Shown: piece by piece, positions 7,875 through 26,072 of the stretch
Layout of the letters: each line of letters opens with the position of its first letter
How positions within the stretch are numbered: position 1 is the stretch's first letter
Notes under the pieces: model-generated
Database searches by the model: none
What the model was told of the DNA's origin: nothing
What the model saw: only the letters and a program-made list of their open reading frames with translations
Virus record (IMG/VR): IMGVR_UViG_3300049479_000300
Location: 1 to 26,923 of that record
Length of the DNA stretch: 26,923 nucleotides
Source of the DNA: a virus
Reading direction: 5' to 3' (one strand)
Program-made: the position numbers and the translations under genes

Positions 7875-8327
7875 TTAAAGTTCAAAATCTCTTTCAAAAC
7901 TAACAAAGAAAGCTGCGGCCATATATCCGCCTTCAAAACTTAGAGTAGCCCCTCCTCCGAAATTTGGGGGAGAAACACTCTCAATTATCATCTGCCCTAT
8001 TCTTCTACCTCTGAGTAGATCTCTTAGGGTTTCTGCTCTCGTTAAAATACTACCCGATACTCCGAGTTTGGCAACATCCACTACATGAAAATATATTGTC
8101 CCGGTCTCTCTGTATTTCCCCTGAGCGTTATCTGAGGCTAAAGTGATAGGAATTTCTTCCCCTCCGATAAAATCTAGACCTAGCCAAGGGTCGTTTGTAG
8201 TAATCCCGGCGGCTATTACCATGTCATCCATTGTGGAATACTGACTAGATACATCGATTACTGTCTCAGTTGGGGCATTGGTATTTAGGAAACTAATTAT
8301 CTGATTTCTAACGTAAGCTGAACTCAC
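7875..8327 (-). CDS. Tail terminator protein (probable)
   Basis: A 150-residue protein starting with GTG, which overlaps the previous gene's TAG in TAGTG. The N-terminal helix SAYVRNQIISFLNT and the following beta-rich body, including a RETGTIYFHVVDVAKLG segment and helix SILTRAETLRDLLRGRRI, agree with the lambda U-type tail terminator fold. That protein caps the tail tube and contacts the neck. It lies directly before the tail tube gene, as expected. The sequence-level family match is only moderate, and position carries most of the weight. Confidence 0.68.
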   Translation of the reverse strand: MSSAYVRNQIISFLNTNAPTETVIDVSSQYSTMDDMVIAAGITTNDPWLGLDFIGGEEIPITLASDNAQGKYRETGTIYFHVVDVAKLGVSGSILTRAETLRDLLRGRRIGQMIIESVSPPNFGGGATLSFEGGYMAAAFFVSFERDFEL

Positions 8328-9157
8328 TATGCCTCCGCAATAAAGGTTACAACTATTGAAGGGTAAACATACGCCCTGGCCGGACCCTTATCGCTCTTTC
8401 TTAGGTTAAATTTTTTCTTCCCTAAGACCGATCCGGTTCTTTTGTTGCGAATAGTTACCCTGTCCAACTGTAAGGTCGATCCAGATATAAAATCAAACTT
8501 AAGACGATACTTACCTTTGTCTTCTCTTCTAATGCTGCGATACGCCAAATAATAGGCACCGTTTGGGGCAGAGAAATGAGTTTTTATTTTATTATATTGG
8601 GACCTAGTTTTCTTAGAATATTTTTGAAATCTCTCTGAAGTAGACCCAGCCCTGACTCCAAGTCTTTCTAATCGTCTGGCGTATGGGGTAATGTTAACAA
8701 ATATTAATCTATCCCCTGGGACCACTTTTGGCCTACTGGAAAGCCATGATGAAAGCTCGGAGATACTCCTAGCTACCGTGACACCTTTAAATAGGACGTA
8801 GTTATGGTCGATGTATGTTCCAGTAACTACTTTTGATCTCTCTAATATGGCTTTGTACATGTCCAGGATATCTTCAGTGGCTACCGATGAATCATATCTA
8901 GAAATACTAATTTTACCAAACGGGTTAACTTTCTCTACTGGCTTTGTGAACGATCCGTCTACTCTCGTGATGTATTCTTTCTTTGGAAATCCCCTGGCCT
9001 GTTCTTCTCTTAAAGCATTATGGGCTACTTGTATTAAAGTGCTTCTTAAATATCCCATGAATTTATCTAGGGTAACTTTTCCCCCTAGGTCTTTATCAAC
9101 ATTATAAAGACCTATCTTTCCATTATCTCTTATGGAGATATCAAAGGAAAATCCCAA
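8327..9157 (-). CDS. Neck / tail-completion region protein of unknown family
   Basis: I do not recognise this 276-residue protein. It is basic and soluble, with no signal or membrane segment. A lysine/arginine-rich central part lies near residues 165-205 and the C-terminal part is beta-rich (KFDFISGSTLQLDRVTIRN). The start is TTG at 9157 with AAGGA about ten bases upstream, because no in-frame ATG is close. It ends with TAG directly followed by TGA, a tandem stop. It sits between head closure and tail terminator, the place of HK97 gp10-like or lambda Z-like tail completion proteins, so a neck role is likely but unproven. Confidence 0.7.
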   Translation of the reverse strand: MGFSFDISIRDNGKIGLYNVDKDLGGKVTLDKFMGYLRSTLIQVAHNALREEQARGFPKKEYITRVDGSFTKPVEKVNPFGKISISRYDSSVATEDILDMYKAILERSKVVTGTYIDHNYVLFKGVTVARSISELSSWLSSRPKVVPGDRLIFVNITPYARRLERLGVRAGSTSERFQKYSKKTRSQYNKIKTHFSAPNGAYYLAYRSIRREDKGKYRLKFDFISGSTLQLDRVTIRNKRTGSVLGKKKFNLRKSDKGPARAYVYPSIVVTFIAEA

Positions 9158-9481
9158 TTAAGATGTCCTTATTCTGAATCCGCAAATTTCTCCTCCAAGG
9201 GAGAACATCTCTCGGACTTCTGAAATAGTTACTGTCCCAAATTCTGCATCTGTAATTCTATCGCCACGTTTTATTTCCGGGTATCCAGAGGCAACAAGAT
9301 TAGTTTTAGAAACTACAAACTCTCTTCCCTCTATTACGGCCTCAGAAATTCCCGCCAAGTTTCTAAAATAGTTTGAAGGACTGACTTGAATAGTGGCCGT
9401 AAATGCCGTAGCTGGGCGAGAAATAGTTACCGTTCTATGGTGCATGGAAAGCATAATATCAAGGGCTTGTCTAATCGACAT
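9158..9481 (-). CDS. Head closure / head-tail joining protein (probable)
   Basis: A small beta-rich protein of 107 residues from the ATG at 9481, or 109 from the ATG at 9487. The GGGGAG ribosome binding site lies about eight bases before 9481 and only about one base before 9487, so I prefer 9481. The segment FVVSKTNLVASGYPEIKRGDRI followed by FGTVTISEVREMF has the pattern of head-closure and stopper proteins with an OB-like barrel. It starts inside the end of the connector gene and is followed immediately by the neck-region protein. The function is from size, order and fold impression. Confidence 0.65.
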   Translation of the reverse strand: MSIRQALDIMLSMHHRTVTISRPATAFTATIQVSPSNYFRNLAGISEAVIEGREFVVSKTNLVASGYPEIKRGDRITDAEFGTVTISEVREMFSLGGEICGFRIRTS

Positions 9482-10094
9482 ACTCATTCTCCCCTGTTAG
9501 GACTGCTCTTTCACTTCTATATCTATCAATAACATTTGTAAAGTTTCCGAATAGGGCTCCGAATCCTCGTGCCCTACTGTTAGCCTCTAGGGTGTAATCA
9601 AATTGTACAGATATAGTCCCTGGGATGGATACGCTTTGAACGTCGCTTCCGAAGTTTAAAGAAATTCCGGCCTTCTTTTTATTGTATCTTTCTTCGACAA
9701 TTGATTTCACTGCCATAGATAAAGGCCCCGGAATGGTGTCAAATCCAGCGTCGTATGTCACCACTAGCTCGTCAGCACATCCGAAGAATCCTTGTCCTAG
9801 ATTTCTAAATATTTGCCCAGAGGGTTTTAGAAATCGGAAATCAGTTATCGCCACCCCGTCTGCCTCGATAGATGTAATTGTCTTTATGGGGTATTGAGCA
9901 GTTTTAAATCTAGAAAAATCGTTTGGATATTCTTCTCGGTAGAATCTTTGTACATAAGATCCGGCATTAAAAATCCTGCCACAATAGTTTTCAATGGCTT
10001 CGGAGACTAGTGTAAGTTGTTCTGTGAGAAAAGTGTCATCCGAAGTGCCAACTATTCCCAGGTATGCTTTCATATCTGCAAGAGAAACTAACAT
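9471..10094 (-). CDS. Head-tail connector protein (HK97 gp6-like)
   Basis: A 207-residue protein whose N-terminus, LADMKAYLGIVGTSDDTFLTEQLTLVSEAIENYCGR, is the helical signature of phage gp6-like head-tail connector (adaptor) proteins. These proteins form a ring under the portal. A beta-rich middle (FYREEYPNDFSRFKTAQYP, ITSIEADGVAIT) and a helix with SMAVKSIVEERYNKKKAG follow. AAGGAG lies seven bases before the ATG. It ends in TAG, and the head-closure gene starts before that stop. It begins the neck module, which here is separated from the portal gene by more than 5 kb of fibre-type genes. Confidence 0.83.
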   Translation of the reverse strand: MLVSLADMKAYLGIVGTSDDTFLTEQLTLVSEAIENYCGRIFNAGSYVQRFYREEYPNDFSRFKTAQYPIKTITSIEADGVAITDFRFLKPSGQIFRNLGQGFFGCADELVVTYDAGFDTIPGPLSMAVKSIVEERYNKKKAGISLNFGSDVQSVSIPGTISVQFDYTLEANSRARGFGALFGNFTNVIDRYRSERAVLTGENEYVD

Positions 10095-15743: not shown

Positions 15744-17027
15744 TTACTTTCTTTGAAGAAAGCTGATTACTTCATTTTTTAATTTCTTATCTTCTGGTGA
15801 AGATGCCGGAGTAGTTTCTTTAGGCCTTACTTGAGCATCAATTACTTCATCTATCCTATCAGAAGGTGTGAAGTTATTTACAGCGACGAAATATCTGTCT
15901 CCTCCAGAGTATGGGGCCATGCCCTCTTTCTCTCTAATTTCATTTGGAGTTATAGCCGCTGCTTGCATCATCTTAGAGAAGTAATTAGCTCTTGTAGTCA
16001 TATCTCCTCTATGTACAGAGTAAAGATCCACTTGAGTATATTTTCCGCCGTATCTGTAATTTAATAATTTAATATCCGCCTGTAGCTCCAAGATTTTGGC
16101 CCACGCATCTAGGGTATCAGTTACAACCTCAAGAGAACTATTCTCCTGATTATTATATGTGGCTGCTGTGGTGTCGTATAGTTTAGTGGGTGGAACCCCT
16201 AGGAATCTTGCAATCTCTACAACTGAGAATTTTCGTGATTCTAAGAACTGAAGGACATTTGGGTCCATGTTAACTGGAGAAAATTTAATCCCTTCTTCAA
16301 GGACAGCCACTCCAGCAGCCTTACGCCCTCCGTGGGCTGAAGTCCAAGACTCTTTTAGTCTTACTGCCGCTTCTTCCGAAAGAGTTCCTGGAACTTCTAA
16401 TACTCCCGAAGGTATGCCTCCATTACCAAAAAGATTATTGGCCATTCGATTGGCCCCTAAAGATATACCTAAAGTATCCGCACCGTAGGCCACAATTCCT
16501 TGTCCTAATAGCCCATCTTTTGTGTGAAAGTTTCTAATGTGAAAAACATCTTTGGCCTGGAGGTACACATCTTCTCCATTGGTCCCGCCTTTTAAAACCC
16601 TGTAGACTAATTTCCCATCCGGGAGTCTGTATGGATCTACTGAACCTTGGGGAAGTGGCCAAATTGCTACCGGGGCCCCAATCATATTTCTCTCAATCTC
16701 TGCATAAGAGTTACCATGTATAAGAGCCTGTTGAACCATCCACAATCTAAAACTCATAGAATCCATTTCTGGATTCGGGGACATATCTAGGAGGGTCATT
16801 ATCCTATCGGTATAAAGAATATTGTTTTTAGAGTCCTTAACTTCCCAAGGAAGTTTTGCTATTTGAGTAGAGATATACATCAATCCTCGATAGAATGCCG
16901 AGACTTGCATAGAGCTATCTTCATTAACTGCTATTCCAGCAGAAATAGAAAATGCTCTTCTTGCTGTCCCGATCTGTTCTCTCTTAAATATTAGTTTGCT
17001 GAAAAAAGACATAAGAGGAAACTTCAT
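15744..17027 (-). CDS. Portal protein (HK97 family)
   Basis: A 427-residue protein that would form the dodecameric portal ring for DNA packaging and ejection. It shows the HK97 portal family pattern: FYRGLMYISTQIAKLPWEV near residue 45, HGNSYAEIERN near 114, DVFHIRNFHTKDGLLGQG near 160, and FLGVPPTKLYD near 270. The C-terminus is polar. AGGAG lies eight bases before the ATG. In HK97 the portal precedes protease and capsid, whereas here it follows capsid, decoration and an 80-residue protein. The length is normal and there is no truncation. Confidence 0.92.
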   Translation of the reverse strand: MKFPLMSFFSKLIFKREQIGTARRAFSISAGIAVNEDSSMQVSAFYRGLMYISTQIAKLPWEVKDSKNNILYTDRIMTLLDMSPNPEMDSMSFRLWMVQQALIHGNSYAEIERNMIGAPVAIWPLPQGSVDPYRLPDGKLVYRVLKGGTNGEDVYLQAKDVFHIRNFHTKDGLLGQGIVAYGADTLGISLGANRMANNLFGNGGIPSGVLEVPGTLSEEAAVRLKESWTSAHGGRKAAGVAVLEEGIKFSPVNMDPNVLQFLESRKFSVVEIARFLGVPPTKLYDTTAATYNNQENSSLEVVTDTLDAWAKILELQADIKLLNYRYGGKYTQVDLYSVHRGDMTTRANYFSKMMQAAAITPNEIREKEGMAPYSGGDRYFVAVNNFTPSDRIDEVIDAQVRPKETTPASSPEDKKLKNEVISFLQRK

Positions 17028-17058
17028 CGAACCAACTCCTAGAGAATGAGTTTATATT

Positions 17059-17301
17059 TTACTTTTTCTTAGAGGCTTTCGCCTTAGGCTTTTCGACTTC
17101 TTCTAGGTCGCTGCCTAGAATATCTTGCTCTGGTAATACGGGAGTTACAACTACTTCCTCTTTCTCAACGTAAGGAATAGCTTTACCTCTTTTAATCCAT
17201 CTGTTTGCGTAACCAAGCTCTTCTGGAACATCCGCAATCTGGCCTTTAGAATAGACACAATGTCCTTCGTAAAATGCATCTTCAATAAATTTCAATTTCA
17301 T
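17059..17301 (-). CDS. Small head-region protein of unknown function
   Basis: An 80-residue protein. The N-terminal half (FYEGHCVYSKGQIADVPEEL followed by RWIKRGKAIPY) looks like a small beta domain seen in many phage head modules. The C-terminal half is acidic, then ends in a basic KAKASKKK tail. GGAGGG lies about four bases before the ATG. It sits between the decoration-like gene and the portal, after a strong hairpin terminator. Function is unknown. Confidence 0.68.
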   Translation of the reverse strand: MKLKFIEDAFYEGHCVYSKGQIADVPEELGYANRWIKRGKAIPYVEKEEVVVTPVLPEQDILGSDLEEVEKPKAKASKKK

Positions 17302-17313
17302 AAACCCTCCAAA

Positions 17314-17346
17314 TAAAAATAGGGAACTTTTAGCCCCCTATTTTTA
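17314..17346 (-). terminator. Intrinsic terminator after the decoration-like gene
   Basis: A perfect 11-bp inverted repeat, TAAAAATAGGG with CCCTATTTTTA, with an 11-base loop. On the minus strand the T-run is part of the 3' arm. The symmetric A/T arms make it able to work in both directions. It separates the highly expressed capsid and decoration-like genes from the portal operon. Confidence 0.8.
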
Positions 17347-17371
17347 CACCTGTTTAAGGTATGTCAAACTA

Positions 17372-17851
17372 TTATAGAGCTACAGCGTACGCTGGCTTAT
17401 GTCTGCAATCAGACATAATATAGCAAGCTGCGCCAATTTTAGCTGCACCTGAGTCTGCAATGTCTACGCTAAAGTGAGCGTAACCATTGTCTGTGTCTAA
17501 CTGATCTCCAGAAATCTCGAATACAACTACACCTGCGTTAGCTGCGAAAACTGAAGAGATGTCAAACATAGAAGCAGCAGAAGGCTCAACTTTTGTGAAC
17601 TCAGTAGCAGCGCCAGCCTTATGGAAGTAAGGGTTAGCAACAGTAAGAACTTTTGAAGTTCCACCTGAAGCCGCGGTGTGTTGGTTCAATGTTACTTGAA
17701 CAGTCGCACCAACAGAAGCGCCCATTGCCAAAAGTACGGCTACTTTATCCCCTTTTGCTAGGCTGATTCTAGCGCCAGTAATAGCCGCAGTATTTAGATC
17801 TACTGGGTCCATTACTTTCTTAATATTTTTTTCTTCTAATAAGTAATTCAT
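17372..17851 (-). CDS. Probable head decoration / structural protein
   Basis: A 159-residue Ala/Gly/Val-rich, beta-rich protein without signal peptide. It has ARISLAKGDKVAVLLAMGAS, VQVTLNQHTAASGGTSKVL and a C-terminal end with CYIMSDCRHKPAYAVAL. It follows the capsid gene, is framed by two strong terminators, and has AGGAG eight bases before its ATG. These are signs of a high-copy virion protein. Similar proteins occur beside HK97-type capsid genes, but I cannot name the family with certainty. Confidence 0.65.
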   Translation of the reverse strand: MNYLLEEKNIKKVMDPVDLNTAAITGARISLAKGDKVAVLLAMGASVGATVQVTLNQHTAASGGTSKVLTVANPYFHKAGAATEFTKVEPSAASMFDISSVFAANAGVVVFEISGDQLDTDNGYAHFSVDIADSGAAKIGAACYIMSDCRHKPAYAVAL

Positions 17852-17864
17852 TTTTAAATCTCCT

Positions 17865-17896
17865 AAAAATTGTGGGGCCCAGATTATCTAGGCCCC
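17865..17896 (-). terminator. Intrinsic terminator after the major capsid gene
   Basis: On the minus strand GGGGCCTAGA-TAA-TCTGGGCCCC forms a ten-bp stem with one T-G wobble and a three-base loop. ACAATTTTT follows. It starts six bases after the capsid stop codon. Readthrough would be needed for the next gene, unless that gene has its own promoter. Confidence 0.82.
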
Positions 17897-17902
17897 GTTA
17901 AA

Positions 17903-19189
17903 TTATCTGTCTTGTAAAGTTACAAAGCCTGAAGTCTGGAAGGCACCGTACTCAGTAGAGATTGGTGACTTAAACGGACAGTGGCCAGCAAGTCTCATTG
18001 TAAACTTGAACGCAGCTTCAGAAGTGCTGAAGTAAACGTGAGTAGACATTTCAGACTTGATGCCAGCAGTTTTGTAAGCTGTGTACATGTAGCTTAGGTC
18101 AGCAAGGACGATATCGCCCTCATCGCCAAGAGCCTTAACACCGCCAAGCATTGGCTTCAAAGGAATTCCAAAAAGAGTTCCGTAAGAAGCTCCAGAAATA
18201 CCAGTTGTAGGCAAGTAAGCAGGAACACCATTAGCAACGTCAAACTTCATAGTTCTAAGTTGTGGCAATACAGCCGGGTTAACTAACCATACTGCTTTAC
18301 CGATAGAACCAGGAACAATGCGGCCAAACATGTTATTGATGTTTTCAAAAACAATAGTGTCAGCAACTTGACCAACTTCTTTAGCTACCTGGATCTTGAA
18401 TGCAGAGTTCAACAAACCAAGAGGCATACCAGCACCGTTACCGCTGATGATAGCGTTATTGATTTTGTTAACCATTGCAGCAGGAGCCTCGCCTTTAATC
18501 CAAGACTCTAATGCTGGAGCGTCTTCAAGAAGCTCTTCAGTAACTCTTACCATCGCAGTAAGTTTATGAAGCTTCATAGTAGTTTCGCCAAAGCTTGCCT
18601 TAGATTCTGTAGCAGCTACAGCCTCTCCATCCCAGTAAGCTTTCACATGAGATGAATCCCAAGGAGAAGCTTCGTGAGTTGGTAAAGTTAAGTTATTTGA
18701 AGAAGTTTGGAACTGACGAGTCATAGGAAGTAAAGACTCATCGCCGTTTACTTTATTATGAATCTATGATCGGTAATAAGAAGGGATCAAGAAACCGCCC
18801 TCTTCCCCGATAGCCTCTTTCATTCCAGCAGCCTGGATTGTAAGACGCTTATCGACATTTGAATTACCAGAAAGAGCAGCTTTAGCTACCGCTTTAAAGA
18901 ATTCACCTTGGTTGTTAAACCCGCCTTTAGGGTCAAGGATTCTTCGATCTTCACCAACTTCTGCTTTAACAGGAGTAGGAGCTACTTTACGAGTGCTCTC
19001 TCCAGCTTTAGCAGACATAGCCTCGATCTTCTCGGCAGTCTCAATTTGCTTTTTAGTTGTTTCGAACTCAGCATGAAGTGCATCTACTTCAGACATTTGT
19101 TCGTCGTTAAAACTTCCGTCTTGTGCTTTCAAGCCATCTAACTTAGCTAAGATTCCAGCAAGTTTAGCTCGTAATTGTTCTAAATTCAT
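17903..19189 (-). CDS. HK97-fold major capsid protein, frame interrupted by one in-frame TAG (429 codons)
   Basis: Read through the TAG at 18766-18764, this frame gives 428 residues, a normal length for an HK97-type capsid protein. Residues 1-80 are a helical, charged scaffold-like delta domain. GEEGGFLIPSYYRS (about 128-141) is the usual junction to the mature shell protein. After the TAG come IHNKVNGDESLLPMTRQF and SSNNLTLP, the expected next helix and strand. The E-loop-like AYWDGEAVAATESKASFGET, LEDAPALESWI and the C-terminal domain follow. The part after the TAG has no ribosome binding site. The next in-frame ATG (18724) lies inside the conserved helix-to-strand segment, so separate translation of residues 156-428 is unlikely. 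AGGAG is seven bases before the first ATG. The gene follows the prohead protease and a strong terminator follows it. No other capsid gene exists in the window. The TAG may be a mutation, an error or a suppressed codon. Confidence 0.9.
18764..18766 (-). other. In-frame amber codon (TAG) within the major capsid gene
   Basis: The codons around it read TAC CGA TCA TAG ATT CAT AAT. The frame is identical on both sides: 13 sense codons separate the TAG from the next in-frame ATG at 18724. TAG is a true stop for five other genes here (stops at 8327, 9471, 19239, 25269 and 25755), and no other large gene has an internal TAG. A single C-to-T change from CAG (Gln) would create it. Confidence 0.92.
18764..19189 (-). 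CDS. N-terminal capsid product that ends at the in-frame TAG (delta/scaffold domain)
   Basis: If the TAG is obeyed, the product is 141 residues: the helical scaffold-like domain (EQLRAKLAGILAKLDGLKAQ at the start) plus only the first residues of the shell part, ending SYYRS. In HK97 the delta domain directs assembly and is removed by the protease. This fragment would therefore be almost pure scaffold without a shell domain. Whether such a free product is made, or is useful, is unknown. Confidence 0.55.
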   Translation of the reverse strand: MNLEQLRAKLAGILAKLDGLKAQDGSFNDEQMSEVDALHAEFETTKKQIETAEKIEAMSAKAGESTRKVAPTPVKAEVGEDRRILDPKGGFNNQGEFFKAVAKAALSGNSNVDKRLTIQAAGMKEAIGEEGGFLIPSYYRS

Positions 19190-19238
19190 TTTCTTTCTCC
19201 TATAGAAAGTTGTTTAAATAAATAGAGAGGTCGCTGCG

Positions 19239-19955
19239 CTATTTTTTATTGCGAGCTAATTCAGCCTCAATTTTTAATCTCAAATCTTTAATTTTGTCGT
19301 TTGTAGCAACGACATCTGTCTTAATGTTCTTAGGCATTTTGTGAATCCACAAAGATGCTTTATCTAGAACACTTGCCGCAATTGGCATTGTCTCTTGGAA
19401 TGAACTATCGGCAAATCCTTCTTCGATAGCCATCTCCGCTCCCATCCAAGTTTCTGCATGGAGCATGTCTCTAATTTCTGGTCTGCTCTTTTTGGTCTTC
19501 TTCGCATAAACAGAAATAAGTTCTTCCTCAATAGCGTTAAGCCTATCGATCATGTTCTCGAAGTCCCTTGAATTCCCTGACGCTATGCTCCACGGGGAGT
19601 GGATCATGTATTGAGCACCTTCCCCCATGATGAGTTCGTCTCCTGCTAGTGCTATAACAGAGGCAATAGATGCGGCCATCCCGTCAACATAACAAGTTAC
19701 CTTGGCAGGGTGTTGTTTAAGTCTGTTAAAAATAGTGAACCCTTCAAATACATCTCCGCCAGGAGAATTAATTCTAACTATAATATCTTTTACAGTAGGC
19801 TCTAATTTCTTAAGTTCTTCTGAAAATTGTTTAGCTGTAATGCTGTCTTCAAACCAAGACTGGCCAATAGCCCCGTATAAATAAATCTCTGCCTTTGTGG
19901 CTGATTTATTTTTGATTTCAAAAGGCTGTTGTCTATTAGGCAGTTTTTGAGGCAT
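19239..19955 (-). CDS. Prohead protease, ClpP-like serine peptidase
   Basis: A 238-residue S14 (ClpP-type) protein, as used by many HK97-like phages to trim capsid scaffold domains during head maturation. After AEIYLYGAIG it has RINSPGGDVFEG (oxyanion region, about 61-72), the nucleophile Ser96 in DGMAASIASVIALAGD, and His119 in YMIHSPW. The following helix with EIRDMLHAETWMGAEMAIEEG completes the family pattern. The C-terminus ends in charged helix and a TAG stop. AGGAGGG lies about five bases before the ATG, and a promoter-like sequence lies just upstream. The substrate is most likely the adjacent capsid protein. Confidence 0.92.
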   Translation of the reverse strand: MPQKLPNRQQPFEIKNKSATKAEIYLYGAIGQSWFEDSITAKQFSEELKKLEPTVKDIIVRINSPGGDVFEGFTIFNRLKQHPAKVTCYVDGMAASIASVIALAGDELIMGEGAQYMIHSPWSIASGNSRDFENMIDRLNAIEEELISVYAKKTKKSRPEIRDMLHAETWMGAEMAIEEGFADSSFQETMPIAASVLDKASLWIHKMPKNIKTDVVATNDKIKDLRLKIEAELARNKK

Positions 19956-19973
19956 ATATGCCCTCCTGCCAAA

Positions 19974-20002
19974 ATCCTAAGAATGTAAATATTTCAAGTC
20001 AA
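19974..20002 (-). promoter_or_regulatory. Candidate sigma70-like promoter for the capsid operon
   Basis: Reading the minus strand, TTGACT, a 17-base spacer and TAGGAT lie in the short gap between large terminase and protease. The -35 box is one mismatch from TTGACA and the spacing is ideal, but the -10 box matches only four of six bases. The position would allow extra transcription of protease and capsid. Confidence 0.42.
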
Positions 20003-20011
20003 TTAGATTAT

Positions 20012-21688
20012 TTAGAAAGCTATGATTCCCCTGGACTCATAAACGCTTTCCGCCTGATCTTTCTGAATCCAAGAAGCTAATGCCATGATCACGGCTATGG
20101 CCGGATCAATCTTCAGTCTCTCGTGGGATTTTTTAGGGTAGACATTTCCAGCAGCATCCTCTTTGCAAACGACATTCCCAATGGCCCATCTCAGAAGTGG
20201 CGACCCATTGTGTCTAACTTTTCCTTCTCTAATTAAAGCATCAAGCCTCTTAGTTGGTTCAGATAAATTGGAAGTGTTGAACCTAAATTCAACCATATTG
20301 AGTCTTTCTTTTGTTAATTTTTGGGCAAACTCTGTGGCATTCCACGGGTCGAAAAGAACATCCACCACTTTAACTTTCTTAGACTGGGCTAAAACTTCTG
20401 CCCGAATCTGGTCGTAATCTATGGCCTCTCCTCTGGTTTGGTTTAGGTATCCTTTACCAACGCAATCCACATAAAGGGAATTATTAGAATTCTTAACCGT
20501 TTCTTCGGGAATGTAAGAAGTATCTAGGATATAATAAAGACCATCTTTTTTGAAAACATAGGCAATCGAAGTTAAGTCTATTTTAGATGCCAGGTCTATC
20601 CCGACCATACATCTCTCTCCTCGCATCTTTTCAAAAGTTAATTCCGTATCGGCGCATTGATCCCATTTATAGGTATCAAAAAATGCCCTGGCTTCACTTA
20701 ACCATATATTAAGGTTTTTAACTTTAAAGTTAGCTAGGTCGCTTGGGACCTCTTTGGCTTTCTTGGCCGTGGCCTCGAAAGTTATCGGGTCTACTGATAC
20801 CCCGTAATTTGGGTTAGCTTTTCTCCAAGTTTTCTCGTCGAAGATATCGTCCCCTTCATCAATCGTATAGACTAGGGAGAAAAAAGTATCGTCCTCTACT
20901 TCCCCTAATGCCACTCTTTTAGCGTAACTCGATTGGGTAAATCCCACTCCCTCAACATCAAACCCGGCTGTGGTTATACATAAAAGAAGGGAGTCCCTTC
21001 TCTTTTTCATCCCGGAAAATATAACATCGAAAAGATCTCTGGATACCGCATGGAGCTCATCCATTATGGCTAAAACGTCCTTTAATCCATCCAAAGATTT
21101 TGAATCTGAAGATAGTGCCTTCATTAACGAATTGGACTTCTCATGAGTTATCTTGTGGGCTAGGACTTTTGTTCCTGTCGATTTTAGGAACTGTTTATTC
21201 TTAGATGCCATATTTCTAGCCACATCTAGGACTATTCTAGCCTGGTCTACTTTTGTGGCCACGCATGATATCTCATTCCCTGCTGGATTATCTAGGGATA
21301 AGAAATACAGACCAAGTTGTGAGGCCATAAGGGATTTTCCCTGGCCACGGGGGATTTCTATGTGGGCAGTACGATATCTTCTGTATCCAGTTATTGGGTT
21401 TATGAATCCCATAATATTCATAAACATAAAATTCTGCCACGGCTCGTAGACTATATTTTTAGTCCCCCATTCCCCGTTAACGTGCTCAAATTTTTGAGAG
21501 AGCCTTAAATACCTCTCTGCTACATCTTTGTCGAACGGGTATCTACTTAGGTCTTTAAAAAATCTATTACAAGCCCCAATAATATATTGGCAGTTGGGTA
21601 TCTTCCCCTCAACTACATCTATGGCATATTGGTATCCTGAATAGACATACGGATAGTCCTTAGGATTTACGGGGTTTTTTAATCCCAC
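20012..21688 (-). CDS. terL: Terminase large subunit
   Basis: A 558-residue packaging motor and headful or cos nuclease. The ATPase has Walker A RGQGKS at residues 114-119, Walker B VLAIMDE at 205-211 and the coupling motif CITTAG at 237-242. The nuclease domain has candidate metal ligands Asp365 in MVGIDLASK, Asp447 in VLFDPWN and Asp528 in RLKIDPAIA. This fits the YmfN-like large terminase group (COG4626). The start is GTG and overlaps the small terminase stop. The length is normal and no motif is missing. Confidence 0.95.
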   Translation of the reverse strand: MGLKNPVNPKDYPYVYSGYQYAIDVVEGKIPNCQYIIGACNRFFKDLSRYPFDKDVAERYLRLSQKFEHVNGEWGTKNIVYEPWQNFMFMNIMGFINPITGYRRYRTAHIEIPRGQGKSLMASQLGLYFLSLDNPAGNEISCVATKVDQARIVLDVARNMASKNKQFLKSTGTKVLAHKITHEKSNSLMKALSSDSKSLDGLKDVLAIMDELHAVSRDLFDVIFSGMKKRRDSLLLCITTAGFDVEGVGFTQSSYAKRVALGEVEDDTFFSLVYTIDEGDDIFDEKTWRKANPNYGVSVDPITFEATAKKAKEVPSDLANFKVKNLNIWLSEARAFFDTYKWDQCADTELTFEKMRGERCMVGIDLASKIDLTSIAYVFKKDGLYYILDTSYIPEETVKNSNNSLYVDCVGKGYLNQTRGEAIDYDQIRAEVLAQSKKVKVVDVLFDPWNATEFAQKLTKERLNMVEFRFNTSNLSEPTKRLDALIREGKVRHNGSPLLRWAIGNVVCKEDAAGNVYPKKSHERLKIDPAIAVIMALASWIQKDQAESVYESRGIIAF

Positions 21689-25268: not shown

Positions 25269-25481
25269 CTATATCCCTCCGATTGATGTTCTTATGGTAA
25301 GTGTATCTTTTAGGTAGCTACTGATTTGGGAATACTCCCCGAAATTAGCATTGTCAACCTGGCTGTAATTTGGTAAAGTCATTTTGCCGGAGTATATCTC
25401 CTTGGGCAGTATCAAAACCCTTTTCGGGCCGCTACTCCCAAAGGGACTCCCTTGGAGATATATGTAGGCCTTGCAACGCAA
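25269..25481 (-). CDS. Hypothetical small protein, start uncertain
   Basis: The frame is open from an upstream TAA to TAG at 25269, just before the helicase ribosome binding site. The only start giving 70 residues is a TTG at 25481, inside an iteron and without a ribosome binding site. The first ATG (25382) gives 37 residues, MTLPNYSQVDNANFGEYSQI and onward, with AAGGAG 15 bases upstream, which is far. The longer form contains GSPFGSSGPKRVLILPKEIY. No domain is recognised. It may be real because of its tight fit to the helicase gene, or part of a leader. Confidence 0.4.
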   Translation of the reverse strand: MRCKAYIYLQGSPFGSSGPKRVLILPKEIYSGKMTLPNYSQVDNANFGEYSQISSYLKDTLTIRTSIGGI

Positions 25482-25754: not shown

Positions 25755-26072
25755 CTATTTCTTTATAAAGTTCTCAAAGATGTAGGTTGAGAAGGTCTCA
25801 CAGATAACCTCCTGAAGGTTTAATGGGATGTCAGTCTGATTTAGTCCAGTCCGCTCAAATAGGGCATGGTTGAGCTCGTGGATCAATGTCTTGATTTTGG
25901 TCTCCTCTAACTGGGCCTTAGAGATTTGGATCTTATACCCCTCATGGAAGAATATCCCATAAGCCCGTTGCCCGTTCTCCAGGACTATCTCATCAACCAT
26001 AGTTATTTCTGGAACTACCCCAAAGATCACATATTTCTTTTTTAGCCATTTGGTATATTTGGTGGGTTTCAT
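25755..26072 (-). CDS. Small HExxH zinc-metallopeptidase-like protein
   Basis: A 105-residue protein with the motif TLIHELNHALFE (about residues 62-73), the HExxH zinc site, followed by ICETFSTYIFENF, whose Glu could be the third ligand. The layout resembles small phage SprT- or ImmA/IrrE-like metallopeptidase domains, but it is short and lacks other domains. No signal peptide is seen, so it should be cytoplasmic. Its ATG overlaps the 37-residue ORF's TGA. It ends in TAG inside the last base pairs next to the iteron region. A target cannot be inferred. Confidence 0.75.
   Translation of the reverse strand: MKPTKYTKWLKKKYVIFGVVPEITMVDEIVLENGQRAYGIFFHEGYKIQISKAQLEETKIKTLIHELNHALFERTGLNQTDIPLNLQEVICETFSTYIFENFIKK

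Follow-up and report, generated by a model that had tools for sequence, protein, structure and literature searches.

What does an amber codon inside the major capsid gene of this phage represent? The DNA analysed here, called the window throughout, is a linear piece of the genome of an uncultivated tailed phage, 26,923 bases long. Its major capsid frame (17903..19189) lies on the minus strand and runs from an ATG at 19189, preceded by AGGAGA, through 428 codons to a terminal TAA. The sole internal stop of this HK97-fold frame is a TAG at 18766-18764, confirming the sequence-only reading, which had described one TAG in an otherwise continuous capsid frame. The elements of the gene are listed below.

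18764..18766, minus strand: in-frame TAG, codon 142 of the major capsid gene (the plus strand reads CTA)
18767..19189, minus strand: 5' part of the capsid gene, 141 aa, comprising the scaffold (delta-like) domain and the first N-arm residues
17903..18763, minus strand: 3' part of the capsid gene, comprising the remaining N-arm, the E-loop and the P and A domains of the HK97 fold, ending in TAA
18722..18724, minus strand: first in-frame ATG past the TAG, codon 156, within the fold and without a clear ribosome site
17874..17896, minus strand: strong, GC-rich, terminator-like hairpin GGGGCCTAGATAATCTGGGCCCC with a T-rich tail, right after the capsid stop

Over the 286 codons 3' of the TAG, the capsid frame contains no stop, whereas each of the other five frames contains 11-31. 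The read-through product matches Pfam Phage_capsid (PF05065) over residues 131-403 (2.8e-43) and the major head protein family phrog_10 (7.8e-61), and it has a profile match to HK97 gp5 chains; the 3' part alone still matches Phage_capsid at 5e-40. The absence of stops together with the Pfam and PHROG matches indicates that the frame past the TAG is clearly coding, and the codons there complete the HK97-fold sequence as expected from the sequence alone. The two halves of the gene have the same base composition (GC 0.426 and 0.430), which argues that the frame has not decayed. The open reading frame 3' of the TAG starts at the ATG at 18724; as the earlier reading had it, this start falls within the conserved fold and lacks a clear ribosome site. 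As a possible restart it is poorly conserved, with Met at this position in only 1 of 34 relatives.

An AlphaFold2 model of the capsid protein was built with 34 relatives (mean pLDDT 78). Residues 1-62 are helical, residues 65-79 and 121-130 are modelled with low confidence, and the GGFLIP motif follows at 131-136. Foldseek retrieved 8fqk, 8cfa and 6tb9 at 1e-12 to 1e-14, the model resembling HK97 Prohead I, Prohead II and the RcGTA capsid. Just upstream of the capsid gene lies a head maturation protease gene (phrog_94, 7e-77). Among HK97-type capsid proteins carrying a fused scaffold domain, this one is ordinary. Codon 142 sits in a short helix (137-147) past the conserved GGFLIP motif, and the profile alignment to HK97 gp5, in which query residue 153 stands opposite residue 140 of 3qpr, assigns it to the N-arm. 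In HK97, the N-arm is cleaved at K103/S104 (PMC10275583). The model and the gp5 alignment therefore place the stop slightly inside the shell part. It had been described as falling right after the scaffold domain; it is indeed near the end of that domain, but about 11 residues past the start of GGFLIP and not exactly at the boundary. A working gene in the population would be one uninterrupted frame from which ribosomes would make the 428-residue protein. Its N-terminal scaffold domain would direct procapsid assembly and would then be removed by the protease encoded next door. If the nonsense mutation is real, the sampled genome would make no shell unless helped.

All recognisable genes of the window are on the minus strand. 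They comprise the terminase small and large subunits, head protease, capsid, two small genes, portal, fibre-like genes, head-tail connectors, tail chaperone, tape measure and tail tip. The following three genes flank the capsid gene.

19239..19955, minus strand: head maturation (ClpP/S49-like) protease gene, just upstream of the capsid gene, ending in a normal TAG
20012..21688, minus strand: terminase large subunit gene, intact, used as a query for relatives
15744..17027, minus strand: portal gene, intact, used as a query for relatives

Across 15744-21688 the order is terminase, protease, capsid, two small genes and portal, so the portal gene is downstream of the capsid gene. Relatives fetched by the portal, such as L027 and L028, have the same order, and L002 differs in having terminase-portal-protease-capsid.

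Relatives were fetched by alignment of the portal, terminase and capsid proteins (E up to 1e-20), yielding 121 distinct capsid sequences. Fetching by portal and terminase is independent of whether the capsid gene is whole, and since some of the fetched loci are near duplicates, the counts use distinct sequences. A stop at codon 142 was found in 0 of the 121 (four of which do not cover the codon). The residues at this position are E (39), A (21), T (16), N (9) and D (7), with S, G, Q, R, K, M, I and H as further variants; the site tolerates many residues, at least 13 in relatives, always as a sense codon. The ten closest relatives that span it (50-63% identical) have E in seven cases, D in two and A in one. 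CAG, proposed as the precursor of the TAG, is therefore not the likeliest one, as the closest relatives mostly carry a glutamate codon. Direct capsid protein searches of viral_contigs and genome_contigs found no close relative. No conspecific contig emerged from these searches or from two exact DNA scans near the codon, which may omit the records closest to the window's own; in the scans, only the contig of L028, whose capsid protein is 63% identical, has a common stretch, of 21 nt. One capsid relative (L038, RXKB01000049.1; 46% identical) comes from a 16 kb contig assigned to a Candidatus Dependentiae MAG and may offer a clue to which hosts this phage group infects.

We then considered whether TAG is a working stop here. 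Four clear genes of the window end in TAG (8327-9157, 9471-10094, 19239-19955 and 25755-26072). TAG had been called a normal stop for five other genes; the usage holds and the count does not, as the fifth open reading frame (25269-25481) is doubtful. In relatives with at least 44% identity, TAG is the terminal codon of 9 of 47 capsid, 11 of 41 terminase, 12 of 52 portal and 19 of 51 protease genes; the capsid genes concerned include those of three of the closest relatives. In the window's lineage, TAG functions as a stop.

These counts bear directly on the idea that the phage reads TAG as glutamine (genetic code 15) in its late genes. Phages with this code exist, and capsid genes are among the recoded ones (PMC9523058, PMC11210395). 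However, such phages carry the change in many genes (PMC9523058, PMC11210395), whereas among 7,990 codons of the window 241 encode Gln and a single one is an in-frame TAG. A TAG share of 5% among Gln codons would predict about 13. The standard code already gives nearly all genes their full length, and reading TAG as glutamine would restore a single conserved gene while TAG ends several others. Recoding is already contradicted by the stop counts and, with the codon counts, was ruled out; we give it next to no chance.

Alternatively, the TAG may be real, with a suppressor tRNA inserting an amino acid there and allowing enough full-length capsid protein to be made; this tRNA would come from the host or from a part of the phage outside the sequenced fragment. 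With its tolerance, site 142 could accept whatever amino acid was inserted, and the remaining genome is intact. The base after the TAG is A, and an A following the stop favours amber suppression in E. coli. The window being a fragment, a phage tRNA could also lie outside it. A tRNA with a CUA anticodon had been named as a check, but no tRNA was found in the 26,923 bases of the window, in 28 + 19 relative loci (47 in total; ARAGORN) or, by tRNA-family search, in six whole relative contigs, including ones of 37 kb and 55 kb. Furthermore, TAG ends four clear genes, and readthrough would add about 25 codons to the adjacent protease; here too, the 5% usage would predict about 13 in-frame TAGs and not one. 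The option of a tRNA-read codon thus gains no support from the tRNA searches or the stop usage, and we consider it unlikely.

A further option was deliberate partial readthrough, in which most ribosomes stop at the TAG and free the scaffold domain, and a minority read through to make the full-length capsid protein. In its favour, the scaffold domain lies on one side of the stop and most of the shell on the other, and there is a hairpin about 20 nt downstream of the stop. The 84 nt from the TAG onward fold to -13.0 kcal/mol (z -2.0), a value reached by 4 of 200 shuffles; in the hairpin, the DES codons pair with the TR codons. However, the hairpin is modest, and L028 can form part of it with a sense codon at position 142, so that it was rejected as a readthrough element tied to the stop. 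Amber codons are read through at low levels when unassisted, and the shell protein is required in hundreds of copies. The stop itself is conserved in none of the 121 relatives. In addition, HK97 capsid protein aggregates when the scaffold domain is not attached (PMC10275583), so making the two halves separately would not obviously help. Programmed readthrough is accordingly highly improbable. The same low standing applies to the idea that the capsid N-arm contains a leaky amber particular to this lineage, which would free scaffold beside full-length capsid protein through a natural amber-suppressing host. A stop that was real and read through would offer a new means of setting the ratio of scaffold to shell and would point to natural suppressor hosts. 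Overall, a regulatory role of the amber codon is very unlikely.

We next asked how often core genes are broken in related contigs. Four of them (capsid, terminase, portal and protease) were inspected in the fetched relative loci, counting distinct copies and leaving out stops near match ends in L156, L171 and L247. Clear breaks occur in 3 of 539 copies, or 0.6% per gene (95% interval 0.1-1.6%), and all three are frameshifts, two in capsid genes (L092 and L089) and one in a terminase gene (L152). At this rate, 15% (3-37%) of 28-gene contigs would be expected to carry at least one break, and the window's lone stop fits this background. An apparent terminase break in L033 (L033:1304-2352, IMGVR_UViG_3300028045_001860) was dropped from the base rate, as it proved to be a long in-frame, intein-like insert in the large subunit gene, placed in the Walker A motif (GNGK/ALCLNTD ... 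IPTHN/SLMASQ). The frameshift in L092 (L092:1112-2366, IMGVR_UViG_3300008120_004893) splits the capsid gene near residue 157, in a contig of 4.9 kb; its proximity to the window's stop at 142 is probably a coincidence or an assembly error. A pattern uniting this break position with the ATG at codon 156 was not accepted, the one being a frameshift in so short a contig and the other a Met present in 1 of 34 relatives.

The sequence around the stop is itself unusual. With the stop set neutral, residues 137-145 form the most deviant of the 407 9-mers in the window's capsid protein, the deviant residues being Tyr138 (D or E in 33 of 34 relatives) and Asn145 (usually Lys). This hints at a small run of wrong bases; the hint is weak because the worst 9-mer is more deviant still in 10 of the 34 other sequences. 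Speaking against a contig of poor quality overall, no other gene has an obvious break. Alignment with the relatives' contigs L028/L044 and L037/L045 covers most of the length of genes across the window and reveals no second break, which makes a generally decayed prophage unlikely. Comparable genes are otherwise full length, and neither a bacterial flank nor an Rfam match was recognised within the window.

Taken together, we infer that the base at the TAG is wrong or recent. With a probability of about 0.83, the codon is an isolated and non-adaptive change to an HK97-type capsid gene that is otherwise ordinary, due either to a consensus error or to recent inactivation by mutation. An erroneous base in the metagenomic contig's consensus leads, at roughly even odds; the reading that the sampled genome truly carries a recent nonsense mutation comes second and is less probable, followed by host suppression and, last, programmed readthrough. 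The first option of the sequence-only reading is thus favoured as a mutation or sequencing error and loses its prophage component. The background rate of breaks leads one to expect single nonsense codons in individual metagenomic contigs, and relatives should be compared before such a codon is given a biological reading.

Compared with known systems, the gene is like those of the HK97 gp5 type in its fold, its N-terminal helical scaffold-like region and the protease gene just upstream; unlike its relatives, which have none, it has one TAG in the N-arm. With the phages that read TAG as glutamine (code 15; crAss-like and others) it shares a TAG inside a late structural gene. About half of the phages predicted to use code 15 encode a suppressor tRNA with a CUA anticodon (PMC11210395); here, in contrast, the TAG is single, TAG still ends genes, and no suppressor tRNA was seen in this fragment or in the relatives scanned. 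The locus also resembles the isolated in-frame stops of prokaryotic genes described by Belinky et al. 2021 (PMC7918605), which are common and in many cases artefacts: there is a single stop, orthologues have sense codons, and the frame is conserved on both sides. Real in-frame stops shared between species tend to persist for a short evolutionary time (PMC7918605). The set of Belinky et al. was filtered for stops present in two or more species (PMC7918605), whereas the stop described here occurs in one contig only.
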